Positions 3,144 to 45,532 of a stretch of DNA of 64,000 bases are shown here, in pieces. How positions within the stretch are numbered: position 1 is the first letter of the stretch; the number at the start of each line of letters is the position of its first letter. The position numbers and the translations under genes are program-made. Source of the stretch: Neolewinella persica DSM 23188 (GTDB lineage: Bacteria > Bacteroidota > Bacteroidia > Chitinophagales > Saprospiraceae); assembly GCF_000373105.1 (NCBI RefSeq), contig NZ_KB890439.1, forward strand, positions 1 through 64,000, read 5' to 3'. The notes below the pieces were generated by a model. That model was not told the DNA's origin. It made no database searches and was given only the letters and a program-made list of their open reading frames with translations.

Positions 3144-4424
3144 TCAATGTGCCCCCTGTTTCAACAAGTAAGCGACAATCTCATTATTTCCATTACGCAT
3201 AGCAGCGTTCAATGGAGACCCTTGACCATTGTTGCGAATATTGACATCTGCCCCTTTAGCAACAAGTAATTTTACGACGTCCATCTGTCCATTGCGTGCG
3301 GCGGCATTCAGTGCAGAGCCCTGTCCATTTGTCTGAGCATCGACGTCGGCACCGGCATCGATTAGCAGTTGAACGATTTCCTTGTTTCCATTTCGGGCAG
3401 CGGCGTTGAGGGGGGATCCCTGACCATTATTATGCACGTTCAGGTCGGCACCTTTTTCGATTAAATATTTGACGACCGCTGCTTGCCCGTTGCGGGAAGC
3501 CGCATTGAGTGCAGACCCCTGACCGTTGGTTTGTACGTTCAGGTCCGCACCGGATGCGATCAGCAATTTTACGGTAGCCAGGTTTCCGTTTCTGGCAGCT
3601 GCGTTAAGGGCTGATCCCTGTCCGTTATTCTGGATGTCGAGATTGGCACCCCGGTCGGCAAGCAACTTGATTACCTCATTATGACCATTGCGGGCAGCGG
3701 CGTTGATGGCGGAGCCTTGTCCGTTGGTCTGGCTGTTGATGTCCGCACCTTTGTCTAGCAGCAAGGCTACGGTCTTGACGTGCCCGTTACGAGCTGCGGC
3801 ATTAAGGGCTGATCCCTGGCCATTAGTTTGAGCGTTGATTTCCGATCCTGAGGCAAGGAGCACCTTCACCAATTCGTTGTGTCCCCCTCTGGCGGCAGCG
3901 TTCAACGCGGTGCCGTAACCATTGGAATTAGTAAGCACATCGGCTCCTTTTTTAAGCAGAAAGTTGACCATGTCCAGGTGGCCTTCTTCGGCCGCAGCAT
4001 TTAAGGGTGGGGCATCCTGACTGGCATAATTGTCAATGCTTGCACCTGCATCGATGAGTTGGTTTATGATGTCTAGATTGCCAGTACGCGCTGCAGATAC
4101 GATTGGCGTTCGGTCATGCGCTCGCCGCCAGGTAACTTCGCCATTGTCCTTGTTGATGGTTTCGTAGTCGGGGGTTGTGGTGACACAGTTGGCATCAACC
4201 GTTTTTAGCAGCGTTGAAATGTCTGCCATGTTTTCTTCCCGGATAGCTTTGTTTAATGCGGTACAGTCACTTTCTACTGTTGCTTCAGCCTCCAGTAGGG
4301 TAAGTGGTAGGGTAGCGGCATTTCCGAAAGCAGATGCAGGCCAAAAGAGATTTAGCAGACATAGCAGGGAGAAAGCTTTACTGGTGGTAGAGAGCATTGA
4401 AGCTGGAGGAGAGAAAGTTGTCAT
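3144..4424 (-). CDS. exported ankyrin-repeat protein
   Basis: The 426-residue protein has an N-terminal signal peptide; M10 at 4397 is a possible start, giving a hydrophobic core SLLCLLNLFWPASAFG. After a helical region with two cysteines come about ten 33-residue ankyrin repeats covering residues ~120-426. The repeats are strikingly uniform: the usual TPLHxAA signature is replaced by SALNAAARNG, preceded by TNGQG or NNGQG. Ankyrin stacks bind proteins, so a periplasmic or surface-exposed binding role is likely, but the partner is unknown. The last repeat ends KQGAH with no sorting domain. The near-identical repeats suggest recent expansion by slippage or unequal exchange. It stands alone, converging on ahcY. 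Confidence 0.88.
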   Translation of the reverse strand: MTTFSPPASMLSTTSKAFSLLCLLNLFWPASAFGNAATLPLTLLEAEATVESDCTALNKAIREENMADISTLLKTVDANCVTTTPDYETINKDNGEVTWRRAHDRTPIVSAARTGNLDIINQLIDAGASIDNYASQDAPPLNAAAEEGHLDMVNFLLKKGADVLTNSNGYGTALNAAARGGHNELVKVLLASGSEINAQTNGQGSALNAAARNGHVKTVALLLDKGADINSQTNGQGSAINAAARNGHNEVIKLLADRGANLDIQNNGQGSALNAAARNGNLATVKLLIASGADLNVQTNGQGSALNAASRNGQAAVVKYLIEKGADLNVHNNGQGSPLNAAARNGNKEIVQLLIDAGADVDAQTNGQGSALNAAARNGQMDVVKLLVAKGADVNIRNNGQGSPLNAAMRNGNNEIVAYLLKQGAH

Positions 4425-4726
4425 TGTAGTGGGCGTTTGGAGGAAAGAAGATGGTTTCTGATTAATTGTTATTAGGGGTACTTCCTTTTTTTAGAATGGT
4501 TACAGATGGGCCATGGGTTCTCTTTTATATCCACCGGGCGGTTAATCCTGGGACAGGTACTCAAATAAGTAGTGCAGGTTTTGAACCAACTCTTCTGAAT
4601 GGTATATACTTTATTCGACAGCCTGTTACTCTCTGGCCGAAGGCAATAGAGTAAGGAACTAAAATTCAGAGAAGGGTGAAATACCCCACTCTCACCTGTC
4701 GTTTTCTCCACAAATACCTTATTCCC
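4425..4726. other. intergenic region without a clear gene
   Basis: Some 300 bp separate two divergent genes. A short palindrome GGTTTTGAACC lies near 4579-4589, and a region resembling the flank of a decayed tRNA lies at about 4575-4650. No tRNA fold can be completed and no coding sequence is supported. Confidence 0.5.
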
Positions 4727-5383
4727 ATGCGTACACTACTTACCCTTGTCGCCTTGTGTTGCGGCCTTTCTGTATCCGCCCAATTCGGCGTAATCGCTAA
4801 CGCCAATTTTCACGAAACAAGATCCACCTTTCTTGATGGTTTGGAGGGCGCTGACCCACTGGAGCTGGAGAACGGCTGGGAAGTGGGCGTTAACTATTGG
4901 TTTCGTTTACCCCAAAAACGGGTAGAGTTTATGCCGACGGTTTACTACGGAACTACAAAATTTACGGGTAATCAGGACCAGGGTTTCTCAGAAGCAGGCT
5001 TCCAGTTCAAAGTGAACGTTTACCCTTTCGACTTTGGCGGCGATTGTGATTGCCCAACTTTCGGTAAGCAAGGCCCTCAGTTACAAAAAGGCTTTTTCGT
5101 CCAATTATCCCCAGGCTATGCCTTGTATATGCCAGAGGATAGTTTTGTGGAATATGAAAACAAGTCTGGCTTTACCATGGGCGGTGCCGTTGGTTTGGAC
5201 ATTGGCCTGAGTAACCTGGTAACGGTTACTCCTATGGTGGGCATTCGTTATGGCCTGAGCCCGTACGCTGATGTATTTTATACGGATGTCAATGGCCAGC
5301 CGCTTGGTATTGATGATCCATCACTGACGACCTTTCAGGCCGGTTTGCAAGTAAGCTTCCGGCTGGATCACCGCAAGTATTAA
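4727..5383 (+). CDS. outer-membrane beta-barrel protein
   Basis: The 218-residue protein starts with a clear signal peptide (MRTLLTLVALCCGLSVSAQ). The rest alternates polar and hydrophobic residues with frequent aromatic and glycine residues, as in small PorT/OmpW-like barrels of Bacteroidota (WEVGVNYWFRLP, FFVQLSPGYALYMP). It ends with strands predicted to close the barrel (FQAGLQVSFRLDHRKY). A CDCPTF segment near residue 105 may be a loop disulfide or metal site. Its function is unknown. The longer frame from 4676 was rejected because the signal peptide begins at 4727. Confidence 0.75.
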   Translation: MRTLLTLVALCCGLSVSAQFGVIANANFHETRSTFLDGLEGADPLELENGWEVGVNYWFRLPQKRVEFMPTVYYGTTKFTGNQDQGFSEAGFQFKVNVYPFDFGGDCDCPTFGKQGPQLQKGFFVQLSPGYALYMPEDSFVEYENKSGFTMGGAVGLDIGLSNLVTVTPMVGIRYGLSPYADVFYTDVNGQPLGIDDPSLTTFQAGLQVSFRLDHRKY

Positions 5384-5418
5384 CACGCTTTGCCGTCGTA
5401 ATTTCCCGGCAACAGTGA

Positions 5419-5449
5419 TTTGGATGCTCATCTCCTGATTGTACCTTAG
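5419..5449 (+). promoter_or_regulatory. promoter of the ilv leader/operon
   Basis: TTTG (5419-5422) and TACCTTAG (5442-5449) are separated by 19 bp, matching the Bacteroidota -33 TTTG / -7 TAnnTTTG arrangement with one mismatch. Transcription would start near 5456, about 15 nt before the leader peptide. Confidence 0.6.
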
Positions 5450-5470
5450 TGGTGTTATAAGCATTAACTC

Positions 5471-5548
5471 ATGTCGCAGTTGCTCTTTATTGTGGTTCTT
5501 ATTGTACTGGTGGTGGTTCTACCCACCCCTTCCAGGAAAGCCGCATAG
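5471..5548 (+). CDS. ilv leader peptide (25 aa)
   Basis: This short reading frame starts MSQ, continues [14 protein letters not shown] and ends PTPSRKAA. Thirteen of the 14 residues from 4 to 17 are Ile, Leu or Val. It lies between a promoter-like sequence and a terminator hairpin directly ahead of ilvD. This is the arrangement of branched-chain amino-acid attenuation: a ribosome stalled in the I/L/V run would leave codons 22-25 free to act as the antiterminator segment. The role is inferred from this architecture. Confidence 0.8.
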
Positions 5549-5598
5549 CTTAACGCAACCGACAAAAGCCGCTTTCCTCTACAGGGAAGCGGCTTTTT
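5534..5598 (+). promoter_or_regulatory. ilv transcription attenuator (antiterminator plus terminator)
   Basis: Terminator: AAAAGCCGCTTTCC (5564-5577) pairs with GGGAAGCGGCTTTT (5584-5597), a 14-bp stem with one G-T pair and loop TCTACA, followed by T residues to 5598. Competing structure: AGGAAAGC (5534-5541), inside leader codons 22-24, is perfectly complementary to GCTTTCCT (5571-5578), the 5' arm of the terminator. Two further GC pairs follow beyond one mismatch. A ribosome reaching the stop codon at 5546 would cover the antiterminator and allow termination; stalling at I/L/V codons would allow read-through into ilvD. Confidence 0.82.
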
Positions 5599-5621
5599 CT
5601 TTACCCCACCTTTTGGAAATT

Positions 5622-7304
5622 ATGTCTCACAACCTAAACAAGTACAGCAAAAACGTTACCAGTAATCCGGAGCAACCAGCTGCCAGGGCCATGCTTTATG
5701 CCACTGGGATGGATGATGACGATATGGAGAAAGCGCAGATTGGCGTGGTTTCCACCGGCTGGGAAGGTAACCCTTGTAATATGCACCTGAACGGACTGGC
5801 CGAGGATGTGAAGCAGAGCATCAATGAGCAGCCGGACCTGATTGGTCTGATGTACCATACCATTGGGGTTAGTGACGGCATCAGCATGGGAACCGACGGC
5901 ATGCGTTACAGCCTGCCCAGCCGCGACGTGATTGCCGATAGCGTAGAGACCGTAGCTGGTGCGCAATGGTACGATGGCCTGGTAACTGTAGTAGGCTGTG
6001 ATAAGAATATGCCCGGCGCCATGATCGGCATTTCCCGGTTAAACCGGCCCGCCATCCTTATGTACGGCGGCACCATTAGCCCGGGGTGCTACGAAGACGA
6101 AAAACTGGACATTGTATCCGCCTTCGAAGTGCTGGGTAAATACCGGACTAACGAAGTTGACGAAAAGAAATATAAGGGCGTCATCCGTCATGCCTGCCCG
6201 GGCTCCGGGGCGTGTGGCGGGATGTACACAGCGAATACTATGGCTACGGCCATCGAGGCGATGGGTATGTCATTGCCTTACAACAGTTCTATCCCAGCCA
6301 ACCATCCGGACAAAAACGCAGATTGCCGCCGGACCGGTGAATTCATGCGAAACCTGCTGGAGAAGGACATTAAGCCAAGCGACATCCTGACCCGGAAGTC
6401 CTTCGAAAATGCCATGGTAACGATCATCGCCCTTGGTGGCAGCACCAACGCAGTGCTGCACCTGCTGGCAATGGCCCATGCGGGAAATGTTGATATCACG
6501 ATCGATGATTTTCAGAAAGTAAGCGACCGGGTGCCGTTCATTGCTGACCTCAAACCTAGTGGTAAGTACGTCATGGAAGACCTTTACCTGGTGGGCGGCG
6601 TGCCTGCGGTGATGAAGGAATTGCTCAAACACGGTTTGCTGCACGGTGATTGCCTTACCGTTACGGGTAAAACCCTGGCGGAAAACCTGGCGGAAGCCGA
6701 ACCCCTGAAGGAGGGACAGGACATCATTAAGCCTTTCGATCAGCCGATTAAGGAAACAGGACACCTGCGCATTCTTTACGGAAATCTGGCCACCGAAGGC
6801 TCGGTAGCAAAGATCACGGGCAAGGAAGGATTGCACTTTATGGGCCCCGCTCGTGTTTTTAACTCGGAACTGGAGGCCAATACCGCCATCGGTAAGCGCG
6901 AAATCGTAGAAGGTGACGTAGTGGTTATCCGCTATTCCGGCCCGCAGGGCGGGCCCGGTATGCCGGAAATGCTGAAGCCAACGAGTGAAATTATGGGCCA
7001 GGGCCTCGGCAAAAAAGTAGCGCTCATCACCGATGGTCGTTTCAGCGGCGGCACCCACGGGTTCGTGGTGGGCCACATCAGTCCCGAAGCCATGGTTGGT
7101 GGGCTGATCGGCCTGTTGGAAGATGGAGACATCATCCGGATCGATGCGGAGCAAAACATATTAGAGGCGGAGCTCGATGAGGCCACGATCGCCGAACGGC
7201 GGGCAAAATGGACGGCACCCGAGCCACGGGCAAAATTCGGCGTCCTTAAGAAATACGCTAAGTCAGTTAGTAGCGCCTCCCTGGGGTGCGTTACCGACTT
7301 ATAA
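5622..7304 (+). CDS. ilvD: dihydroxy-acid dehydratase
   Basis: The enzyme dehydrates 2,3-dihydroxy-isovalerate and 2,3-dihydroxy-3-methylvalerate to the 2-keto acids that precede valine, leucine and isoleucine. The 560-residue protein has the family length. It has the Fe-S ligand regions [11 protein letters not shown] and [15 protein letters not shown], a Mg-binding region, and the C-terminal hallmark [19 protein letters not shown]. An upstream in-frame ATG at 5439 would read through the leader and terminator region, so 5622 is chosen; it begins [11 protein letters not shown], 24 bp after the terminator T-run. It is the first gene of ilvD-ilvB-ilvN and appears to be controlled by the attenuator. 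Confidence 0.97.
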
Positions 7305-7355: not shown

Positions 7356-9107
7356 ATGAGTACTACGGCAACCCTTACTTCTTCGAACGGCCAGGCGCCT
7401 ACCACCACCCGGATGAACGGCGCTGCTGCCGTGTTGCAATGCCTGGTCAACGAAGGCGTCAACACCATCTTCGGCTACCCAGGCGGCGCCATTATGCCTA
7501 TTTACGATGCGCTGATCGACTATGAAGACCGACTGCAGCACATCCTGCCCCGTCACGAACAGGGAGCAATCCATGCCGCCGAAGGCTACGCCCGGATCAA
7601 GCGCGAAACCGGCGTTTGTATGGCCACTTCGGGCCCCGGCGCCACCAACCTGATCACCGGCCTGTGCGACGCACAGCTGGATTCTCTTCCTTTGGTGGCC
7701 ATTACCGGTCAGGTTCCCGGCTTTCTGCTGGGAAGCGATGCCTTTCAGGAGGTAGACGTCATCAACAGTACCATCCCCGTGACAAAGTGGAACTACCAAA
7801 TTACCGATCCTAAAGACATCGGTTGGGTAATGCGGAAGGCTTTCTATGTGGCAAATACCGGACGGCCTGGCCCAGTGCTAATCGACATCACCAAGGACGC
7901 ACAACTGGCGATGGTGGATTTTCATTATCCGGAACAGTTGCCCATCCGGAGCTACGTCCCGTACAATAAGCCTAAAACCAGCCAGCTGGAAGCTGCTGCA
8001 GCGCTGATTAATGGCGCGAAACAACCCATGATCCTGGCCGGACACGGCATCCATATTGCCCACGGCCAGAAAGCGTTCCTTGAATTCGTGAATAAGACCG
8101 GAATTCCGGTCGGTGTTACCTGCCATGGCCTGTCAACCATCCCTAATTCGCATCCGCTGTTTACGGGAATGCTGGGGATGCACGGCAATTATGGCCCCAA
8201 CTTCCTCCAAAATGAGTCCGATGTAATTATTGCCATCGGTATGCGCTTCGATGACCGTGTGACGGGTAAGCTGTCGGAATACCTGCCAAACAGCAGAGTG
8301 ATTCACATCGAGGTGGATCCGGCAGAGATCAACAAGAACGTGAAGACCGAGGCTCCAGTGCTTGGTGATGCTAAAGAGGTCTTGGAAAAATTACTTCCAC
8401 TGGTGGATCAAAAAACTTACCCTGCCTGGGTTGCCCGCTTCAATGAATGTGAACGCATTGAGCATGAACGGGTGATTCACGAAGCGATCAGGCCAACCGA
8501 AGACGGACAAATCCGGATGGGGCAGGCGATTCGCGAAGTCAGTAACCAAACCGAAGGTAAAGCCATTGTTTGTACTGATGTAGGCCAGCACCAGATGATG
8601 GCCGCACGGTATTACCAGTACGAGGGCCACGACCAGTGGGTCAGTTCCGGCGGAGCCGGAACAATGGGCTACGGATTGCCCGCCGCCTTTGGTGCAAAGT
8701 ACGCCGATCCCAGTCGCCAGACGGTTGCCTTTATCGGTGACGGCGGATTCCAAATGACCCTGCAGGAACTAGGCCTCTGTGCACAGTGGAACGTGGGGGT
8801 CAAAATCGTACTGTTAGACAACAACTTCCTCGGCATGGTTCGCCAATGGCAGGAGCTGTTTCACAATGAAAGGTACAGTTCGGTAGAACTGGTGAACCCC
8901 GATTTTGTCACCATTGCAAAAGGTTTCGGCGTCCCCGGCAAAACCATTCGGGACCCTAAAGACGTCAAATCTGCCATTGCGGAGATGCTGGGGCATGATG
9001 GCCCCTACCTGCTGCACGTTCACACGGTGAAACTGGATAATGTATTTCCGATGGTACCCAGCGGTAAGTCTGTTGCAGAGGTGATTCTGGGGCCGGAAGA
9101 CCTCTAA
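7356..9107 (+). CDS. ilvB: acetolactate synthase, large (catalytic) subunit
   Basis: A thiamine-diphosphate enzyme joins pyruvate with pyruvate or 2-oxobutyrate in the first common step of Val/Leu/Ile synthesis. The 583-residue protein has the three expected domains. The N-terminal Pyr domain has the catalytic Glu in [15 protein letters not shown]. The central domain binds FAD. The C-terminal PP domain has the Mg/ThDP motif [12 protein letters not shown] with [15 protein letters not shown]. It lies 51 bp after ilvD, presumably in one transcript. The start at 7356 precedes a 20-residue polar extension before the conserved domain. Confidence 0.96.
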
Positions 9108-9231: not shown

Positions 9232-9777
9232 ATGAGTACCGAAATAACTAATTACACCATTACTGTTTTTACAGAAGATCAGGCCGGATTGCTTTCCCGG
9301 GTGGTGGGCATTTTTAATCGCCGTAATCTCAGCATCGCCAGTCTGACCACCAGCCAGAGCAGTGATCCGACGATTCACCGGTTTACCATTGTGGTGAAGG
9401 TGACGGAGGAGATGGTGATTAAATTAGTGGCTCAACTCGACAAGCAGGTTGACGTACTAAAAGCTTTTTATTACGAGGATTCAGAAATCGTCCACCAGGA
9501 AATAGCCCTGTATAAAGTCCCCGTCGATGTTTTTAGTAATGGCAGTGAGGTCGAACAGCTGATCCGAAAGCACAACGCCCGGGTATTGCTCATCGAGCCA
9601 GAATACGTAGTGATCGAGAAAACCGGTCACGAGCAGGAAACGAATGCTTTGCTGGATGACCTGCGGCAATTTGGCATCTATGAATTCGTGCGTTCGGGCC
9701 GTGTAGCGATTGTGAAACCGATGGAACGGCTGAACAACTACCTGGCTACGATGGGTAAGGGGATTAGTTCTTCGTAA
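9232..9777 (+). CDS. ilvN: acetolactate synthase, small regulatory subunit
   Basis: The 181-residue protein carries an N-terminal ACT domain (YTITVFTEDQAGLLSRVVGIFNRR, shown as TEDQAGLLSRVVGIFNRR, residues ~7-80), the valine-binding feedback module. A C-terminal ALS_ss_C region (about 85-170) stimulates the large subunit. It would assemble with the neighbouring IlvB and give valine feedback inhibition. The gap to ilvB is 124 bp and holds a weak hairpin and a copy of the GC-rich motif, unusual for an operon whose subunits are needed together. ilvC and the leu genes are not in the window. Confidence 0.94.
   Translation: MSTEITNYTITVFTEDQAGLLSRVVGIFNRRNLSIASLTTSQSSDPTIHRFTIVVKVTEEMVIKLVAQLDKQVDVLKAFYYEDSEIVHQEIALYKVPVDVFSNGSEVEQLIRKHNARVLLIEPEYVVIEKTGHEQETNALLDDLRQFGIYEFVRSGRVAIVKPMERLNNYLATMGKGISSS

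Positions 9778-45459: not shown

Positions 45460-45532
<73 letters not shown>

Follow-up and report, generated by a model that had tools for sequence, protein, structure and literature searches.

Here we report that the ilvD-ilvB-ilvN operon of Neolewinella persica DSM 23188 is very probably governed by a transcription attenuator of the ribosome-mediated type, responsive to the charging of branched-chain tRNAs. The element lies in the 64,000-nucleotide stretch of contig NZ_KB890439.1 (positions 1 to 64,000) that was analysed here and is referred to as the window; its parts, their conservation and the covariation of both of its alternative helices can be read from the sequences compared. Two competing helices, together with selection on codon class, provide comparative evidence for ribosome-mediated branched-chain attenuation in Bacteroidota. 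Switches of this kind are already known, and the genomes surveyed give good support to the view that attenuators often precede ilvD in this phylum. The more novel part of the results concerns tandem copies of the element and its traceable losses.

An earlier note on the window had described a promoter-like TTTG-N19-TACCTTAG, a 25-residue leader in which residues 4-17 include 13 I/L/V, a 14-bp hairpin and T-run followed by ilvD, perfect complementarity between 5571-5578 and 5534-5541, and the gene order ilvD-ilvB-ilvN. All of these were recovered, the promoter-like site as an exact match, the leader in the ORF 5471-5548, the hairpin in the MFE fold at 5565-5596 and the gene order with NCBIfam profiles. 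The features are as follows.

5419-5449, forward strand: promoter-like site, TTTG (5419-5422), N19 and TACCTTAG (5442-5449), exact match.
5471-5548, forward strand: leader peptide ORF of 25 aa, ATG start and TAG stop, kept across the genus and with a characteristic codon-position pattern.
5480-5521, forward strand: putative regulatory codons 4-17 of the leader, 13/14 of them I/L/V.
5534-5544, forward strand: strand 2, the 5' strand of the antiterminator within the last leader codons (pairing test, covariation, genus pattern).
5565-5578, forward strand: strand 3, the 5' arm of the terminator, also used by the antiterminator (MFE fold, pairing test, covariation).
5583-5602, forward strand: strand 4 (5583-5596) and T-run of the intrinsic terminator (MFE fold, covariation).
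5622-7304, forward strand: ilvD, dihydroxy-acid dehydratase (TIGR00110, 740.7 bits, cut-off 618).
7356-9107, forward strand: ilvB, acetolactate synthase large subunit (TIGR00118).
9232-9777, forward strand: ilvN, acetolactate synthase small subunit (TIGR00119, NF008864).

The three genes all exceed their NCBIfam cut-offs, and the 7.08-Mb genome contains no other match to the ilvD family. The product of the operon is what the leader codons would sense: residues 4-17 comprise 13 I/L/V and one F, a control codon run for the operon's own product in a short leader ORF. Between this leader and the first structural gene lies an intrinsic terminator, a 14-bp hairpin (5565-5578/5583-5596) with one G-U pair, a loop of 4 and a tail into TTTTTCTTT. 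The MFE fold of 5460-5622 has z = -4.6, and 0/200 shuffles were as stable. A simple terminator scanner reported no terminator over 5380-5700; it probably took part of the T-run for stem. The 5' arm of the terminator has a second possible partner at the end of the leader: the stretch 5534-5541 (AGGAAAGC, codons 22-24) is an exact complement of 5571-5578 (GCTTTCCT), and this pairing gains 2 bp beyond one mismatch (5543-5544 with 5568-5569). As strand 3 is common to both, the antiterminator (2:3) and terminator (3:4) helices exclude each other. A 1:2 pause or protector helix occurs in many, not all, ribosome-mediated attenuators; one forms in the window fold, and it is not claimed as part of the element, since it was better than shuffles at the 5% level in just 2/10 genus leaders.

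In the mechanism that we infer from these parts, which predicts the start site, leader translation, positions of stalled ribosomes and response to amino acids, RNA polymerase would start near 5456 and a ribosome would load on the leader; translation in Bacteroidota starts largely without Shine-Dalgarno sequences. A shortage of Ile-, Leu- or Val-tRNA would slow the ribosome in codons 4-17 with its front edge 5' of 5534; strand 2 (5534-5544) would then pair with strand 3 (5568-5578), no terminator would form and ilvDBN would be transcribed. When the tRNAs are charged, the ribosome would reach the stop codon (5546-5548) and cover strand 2; strands 3 and 4 (5583-5596) would then form the terminator, ending the transcript at the T-run. 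Given the usual footprint of a ribosome, the positions of the run end (5521), strand 2 (5534-5544) and the stop codon (5546) are compatible with such stalling.

A terminator ahead of an operon is also what riboswitches and T-boxes present, and a structure of that sort could read the amino acid or tRNA directly, the ORF being incidental. To this reading we give almost no credence: across the whole window only a tRNA at 45460-45532 reaches an Rfam gathering score, and a permissive search of 5380-5700 gave seven weak matches at E <= 10, all to unrelated families and none to a T-box or amino-acid riboswitch, the best being GlmZ_SraJ (20.4 bits, E 0.0045; gathering score 60). What is conserved in the leader region, moreover, is the I/L/V codons and strands 2-4.

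Within the genus, a strict strand 2/spacer/strand 3 pattern occurs exactly once per genome in 11/21 Neolewinella genomes, and its reversed control in 0/21; the element is lacking in 10/21, among them one with a divergent ilvD (G010). Ten loci were aligned, the eleventh, with a fragmented ilvD (G018), being left out. The leaders have 25-26 codons and end in RKAA-stop in 10/10. Over the 14 codon columns of the run, pairwise differences per site among the ten species are 0.53, 0.13 and 0.59 at codon positions 1, 2 and 3, compared with 0.49, 0.54 and 0.49 in the four spacer codons and 0.05, 0 and 0.38 in the RKAA codons. A middle T that is kept while positions 1 and 3 drift is the pattern expected if the I/L/V class matters, and the run thus bears the mark of selection for T-centred codons.

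A hydrophobic peptide with an RKAA end conserved in the genus might instead be a real small membrane protein, encoded by a gene with its own terminator, ilvD being controlled otherwise. We regard this as very unlikely on several grounds. The RKAA codons vary at four nucleotide positions. The 2:3 helix can accommodate three of these (A/G facing U, the internal mismatch and the last base); at the fourth, the first base of the Arg codon in one locus (L029), the outermost pair is lost. The 2:3 helix covaries across genera although the peptide ends differ, and a Pfam search of the leader peptide gave zero families above cut-off. I/L/V ORFs are found beside ilvD, and none at 7/10 I/L/V was found before leuA in 21 genus loci (one with ~300 nt upstream), where there are two weak GTG ORFs with LLL (L098, L115). 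Four of the 21 leuA-type matches (L096, L106, L113 and L114, of G005, G007, G003 and G013) have stop codons inside the matched stretch.

The attenuator was then considered more broadly in the upstream DNA of 93 ilvD loci of the family and order, comprising 33 loci and the best-scoring 60 further matches over the cut-off, drawn from a search in which 126 genomes exceeded the ilvD cut-off. A leader was defined as an ORF of 12-60 codons, with I/L/V at 8 or more of 10 consecutive positions, at most 600 nt upstream; at one locus (L032) no start was found. Such an ORF is present 5' of ilvD in 41/93 loci, and among the 92 loci with at least 300 nt it was found 41 times on the coding strand versus 7 on the reverse strand and 2.6 expected from shuffles. 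A terminator-like hairpin lies 13-45 nt 3' of 44/45 of these ORFs. The 2:3 pairing was tested by letting the leader end plus spacer pair with the 5' arm and loop of the terminator, against 200 shuffles per module; it reached the 5% level in 36/44 modules (mean z -3.2); the 8/44 that miss it include L002 and L012 of the genus. Strand 2 sits inside the last codons in Neolewinella and at or just after the stop codon in many other genera. The I/L/V ORF at L007, which lies inside an upstream coding region and fails the 2:3 test, was dropped before alignment. At L041, ahead of ilvD, the start of the leader is duplicated on either side of an N run, which may reflect a tandem copy or an artefact of assembly.

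The remaining 43 modules were aligned with MAFFT on sequence only. In the 2:3 helix 80.9% of cells are paired, with 57 double-change cells against a shuffled mean of 20.4; in the 3:4 helix the values are 95.3% and 69 against 17.8. On both measures, and for both helices, 0/500 shuffles were as high, and sliding the partner by 1-3 columns sharply lowers most covariation measures. Double changes occur in 11/11 pairs of the terminator and 7/10 pairs of the antiterminator, the latter count not being above controls (equalled or exceeded in 115/500 shuffles; as many as 9 in the slid controls), and antiterminator columns 43/86 are unpaired in 21/43 modules. Because relatedness inflates such counts, it is the slid controls and per-module shuffles that carry weight. 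A genus-only RNAalifold consensus gave no covarying pair and no 2:3 helix; a single structure cannot hold both helices, and the strands are too conserved within the genus to covary.

A scan of named contigs examined 79/80 loci (L122, with a missing ilvD start, was omitted), of which 73 were left after six without a found ATG. This set overlaps in part with the others; L121 and L015, for example, are the same locus. Under a looser 7-of-10 rule, a leader and terminator are present in 20/73 loci, or 19/73 with a narrower terminator window, in which 14/22 modules reach the 5% level for 2:3. Carriers include Flavobacterium, Lutibacter, Meridianimaribacter, Algibacter, Gaetbulibacter, Sediminibacterium and a MAG labelled Ignavibacteriae; a leader in a Pirellulaceae MAG (L188) is probably due to chance. 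In a phylum sample of 90 genomes, 67 exceeded the cut-off, 64 loci were fetched and 61 were usable; 15/61 were flagged and 10 accepted, seven of the 10 from one family and 7/10 at the 5% level for 2:3. Five flagged loci of one family (L233, L237, L240, L243, L247) were not counted, as their hairpins are 50-57 nt off, mismatched and without a clear T-run; 4/5 of them reach the 5% level for 2:3, and their exclusion is a matter of judgement. A tyrosine/basic stretch is common to the ilvD leaders of seven loci from one family of the phylum (L260-L263, L266, L268, L276), and 6/7 also have GK close to their end, a lineage-specific end comparable to RKAA in Neolewinella.

The earlier note had looked to relatives for conservation of the short frame, of its I/L/V codons and of the 5534/5571 complementarity, and for covariation of both hairpins. 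Frame, codon class and complementarity are kept within the genus, both helices show covariation in the family and order, and the ribosome-mediated design that it proposed appears well founded on the conserved frame, I/L/V run, terminator and covarying 2:3 complementarity. Its remark that such a design is less expected in Bacteroidota did not hold: these leaders are frequent before ilvD in the phylum, and the available text of a study of Flavobacterium psychrophilum (PMC9723704) already proposes attenuation there.

The Bacteroidota promoter consensus is TTTG / TAnnTTTG. In the window this pattern by itself is not above chance (4 matches vs 2.1 expected). Across the genus, a -7 box TAnnTT is present in 19/19 loci examined and begins 26-30 nt 5' of the leader start codon in 10/10 leader-bearing loci examined; as a control, TANNTT[AG] occurs in 15/152 50-nt pieces of upstream DNA. 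The -33 part has a loose match or none at some genus loci, and at L010 it was not found, the loose rule included.

Nine further genus loci have the same upstream gene end and promoter box, and no leader; in the four of these nine that were checked, the gene after ilvD is ilvB. At four of them (L008, L013, L015, L021) a hairpin comes after the promoter box, and at least 5 of the 9 bases behind this hairpin are T, L015 being the weakest case. L016 also has a hairpin after the box, without T. No hairpin was seen 3' of the promoter box at L018, L020, L007 and L024, and in the last two the box begins 13 nt before the ilvD ATG. These arrangements bear on whether the hairpin of the window might merely terminate the upstream outer-membrane-type gene (4676-5383), past whose stop it begins at ~180 nt, with ilvD transcribed from a promoter of its own after the hairpin. 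This we consider highly improbable: the conserved -7 box stands between the upstream gene and the hairpin or ilvD in all the genus loci examined, in sister species it is directly 5' of the hairpin or of ilvD, and in the window the ilvD ATG follows the T-run at a distance of only ~20 nt. The attenuator reading places the hairpin within the ilvD transcript. In an ilvD tree of 26 rows, from which G010 and G018 are absent, the ten species with a leader fall into a single group (100/98); with a midpoint root, the leaderless species group weakly (61/88), compatible with one change. Loss would be likelier than gain, since other genera have the leader.

Duplication is suggested by eight loci with two modules in series, five among the 93 family and order loci (L014, L048, L052, L071, L094) and three among the 73 named loci (L146, Lutibacter; L151, Ignavibacteriae MAG; L180, Gaetbulibacter). 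The first hairpin and the second leader ATG are 14-38 nt apart, and less than 25 nt apart in five. As the -7 box of Neolewinella starts 26-30 nt ahead of its leader, these five loci would have room for a second promoter only if it overlapped the terminator. Loose promoter matches lie near some tandem modules. The 2:3 pairing reaches the 5% level in 14/16 tandem modules, the second modules of L071 and L094 failing. We moderately favour the view that branched-chain attenuators are an old and widespread form of ilvD control in Bacteroidota that evolves via duplication and decay, with complete tandem modules of the same specificity in a seemingly single transcript in some lineages, and with the leader lost in part of Neolewinella, where the promoter is left beside an orphan terminator-like hairpin or ilvD. 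If true, the tandem arrangement would act as a multiplicative or AND-like gate that reads branched-chain tRNA charging. The tandem modules, together with close species with and without the switch, make gating logic and attenuator evolution directly testable.

Leaders were also sought at other amino-acid genes. Before hisG, a His-run leader and terminator-like hairpin are present in 19/21 genus genomes, for instance MFNLHHHHAIFSCHAGER at L201 (G000:C78), and the leader sits after a tRNA-Phe gene in three loci checked; 0/19 reached the 5% level in the 2:3 test. No His leader is present in G011 (hisG locus L219) and G008 (L221), which are also the genomes of the two ilvD loci 13 nt from the promoter box (L007, L024), both attenuators being missing together. 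No obvious leader was seen by eye at the aspartokinase genes of the N. persica genome (two strong matches of three). Elsewhere in the window, the reverse strand at 3144-4424 carries a 426-aa ORF of repeated NGQGSALNAAARNG-like units, which we take to resemble ankyrin repeats.

The enterobacterial ilvGMEDA and leuABCD operons are controlled by ribosome-mediated attenuators. In overall design, the element shares with them a short I/L/V-rich leader ORF, a terminator before the first gene and a mutually exclusive antiterminator; unlike them, it belongs to another phylum, precedes genes in the order ilvDBN, has no supported 1:2 helix and carries strand 2 within the last leader codons. Closer at hand, a study of F. 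psychrophilum (PMC9723704), in the same phylum, proposes the same mechanism, leader-peptide attenuation, ahead of operons for amino-acid biosynthesis; the available text of that paper contains no ilv leader, alternative helix or covariation test, unlike the present analysis. Upstream ORFs reminiscent of leader peptides are mentioned for Bacteroides thetaiotaomicron in the accessible part of PMC7366714, and a 2010 comparative attenuation study by Lopatovskaya and colleagues is cited in that of PMC4833913. Another attenuator of a branched-chain operon outside Proteobacteria is that of Corynebacterium glutamicum ilvBNC (PMC11857589, in its available portion), which differs in being actinobacterial and following a three-hairpin model. 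Among the titles and abstract beginnings of open-licence PMC literature, no tandem attenuators of an amino-acid biosynthetic operon were found, and a possible tandem case (PMC4974804) concerns, in the portion available, magnesium transporters. The tandem relatives described here resemble Salmonella mgtCBR, as presented in the accessible text of PMC3641672, in having two leader ORFs with attenuators in series; mgtCBR differs in that its tandem attenuators read different signals, ATP and proline, and control a non-biosynthetic operon, and the window itself holds one module.
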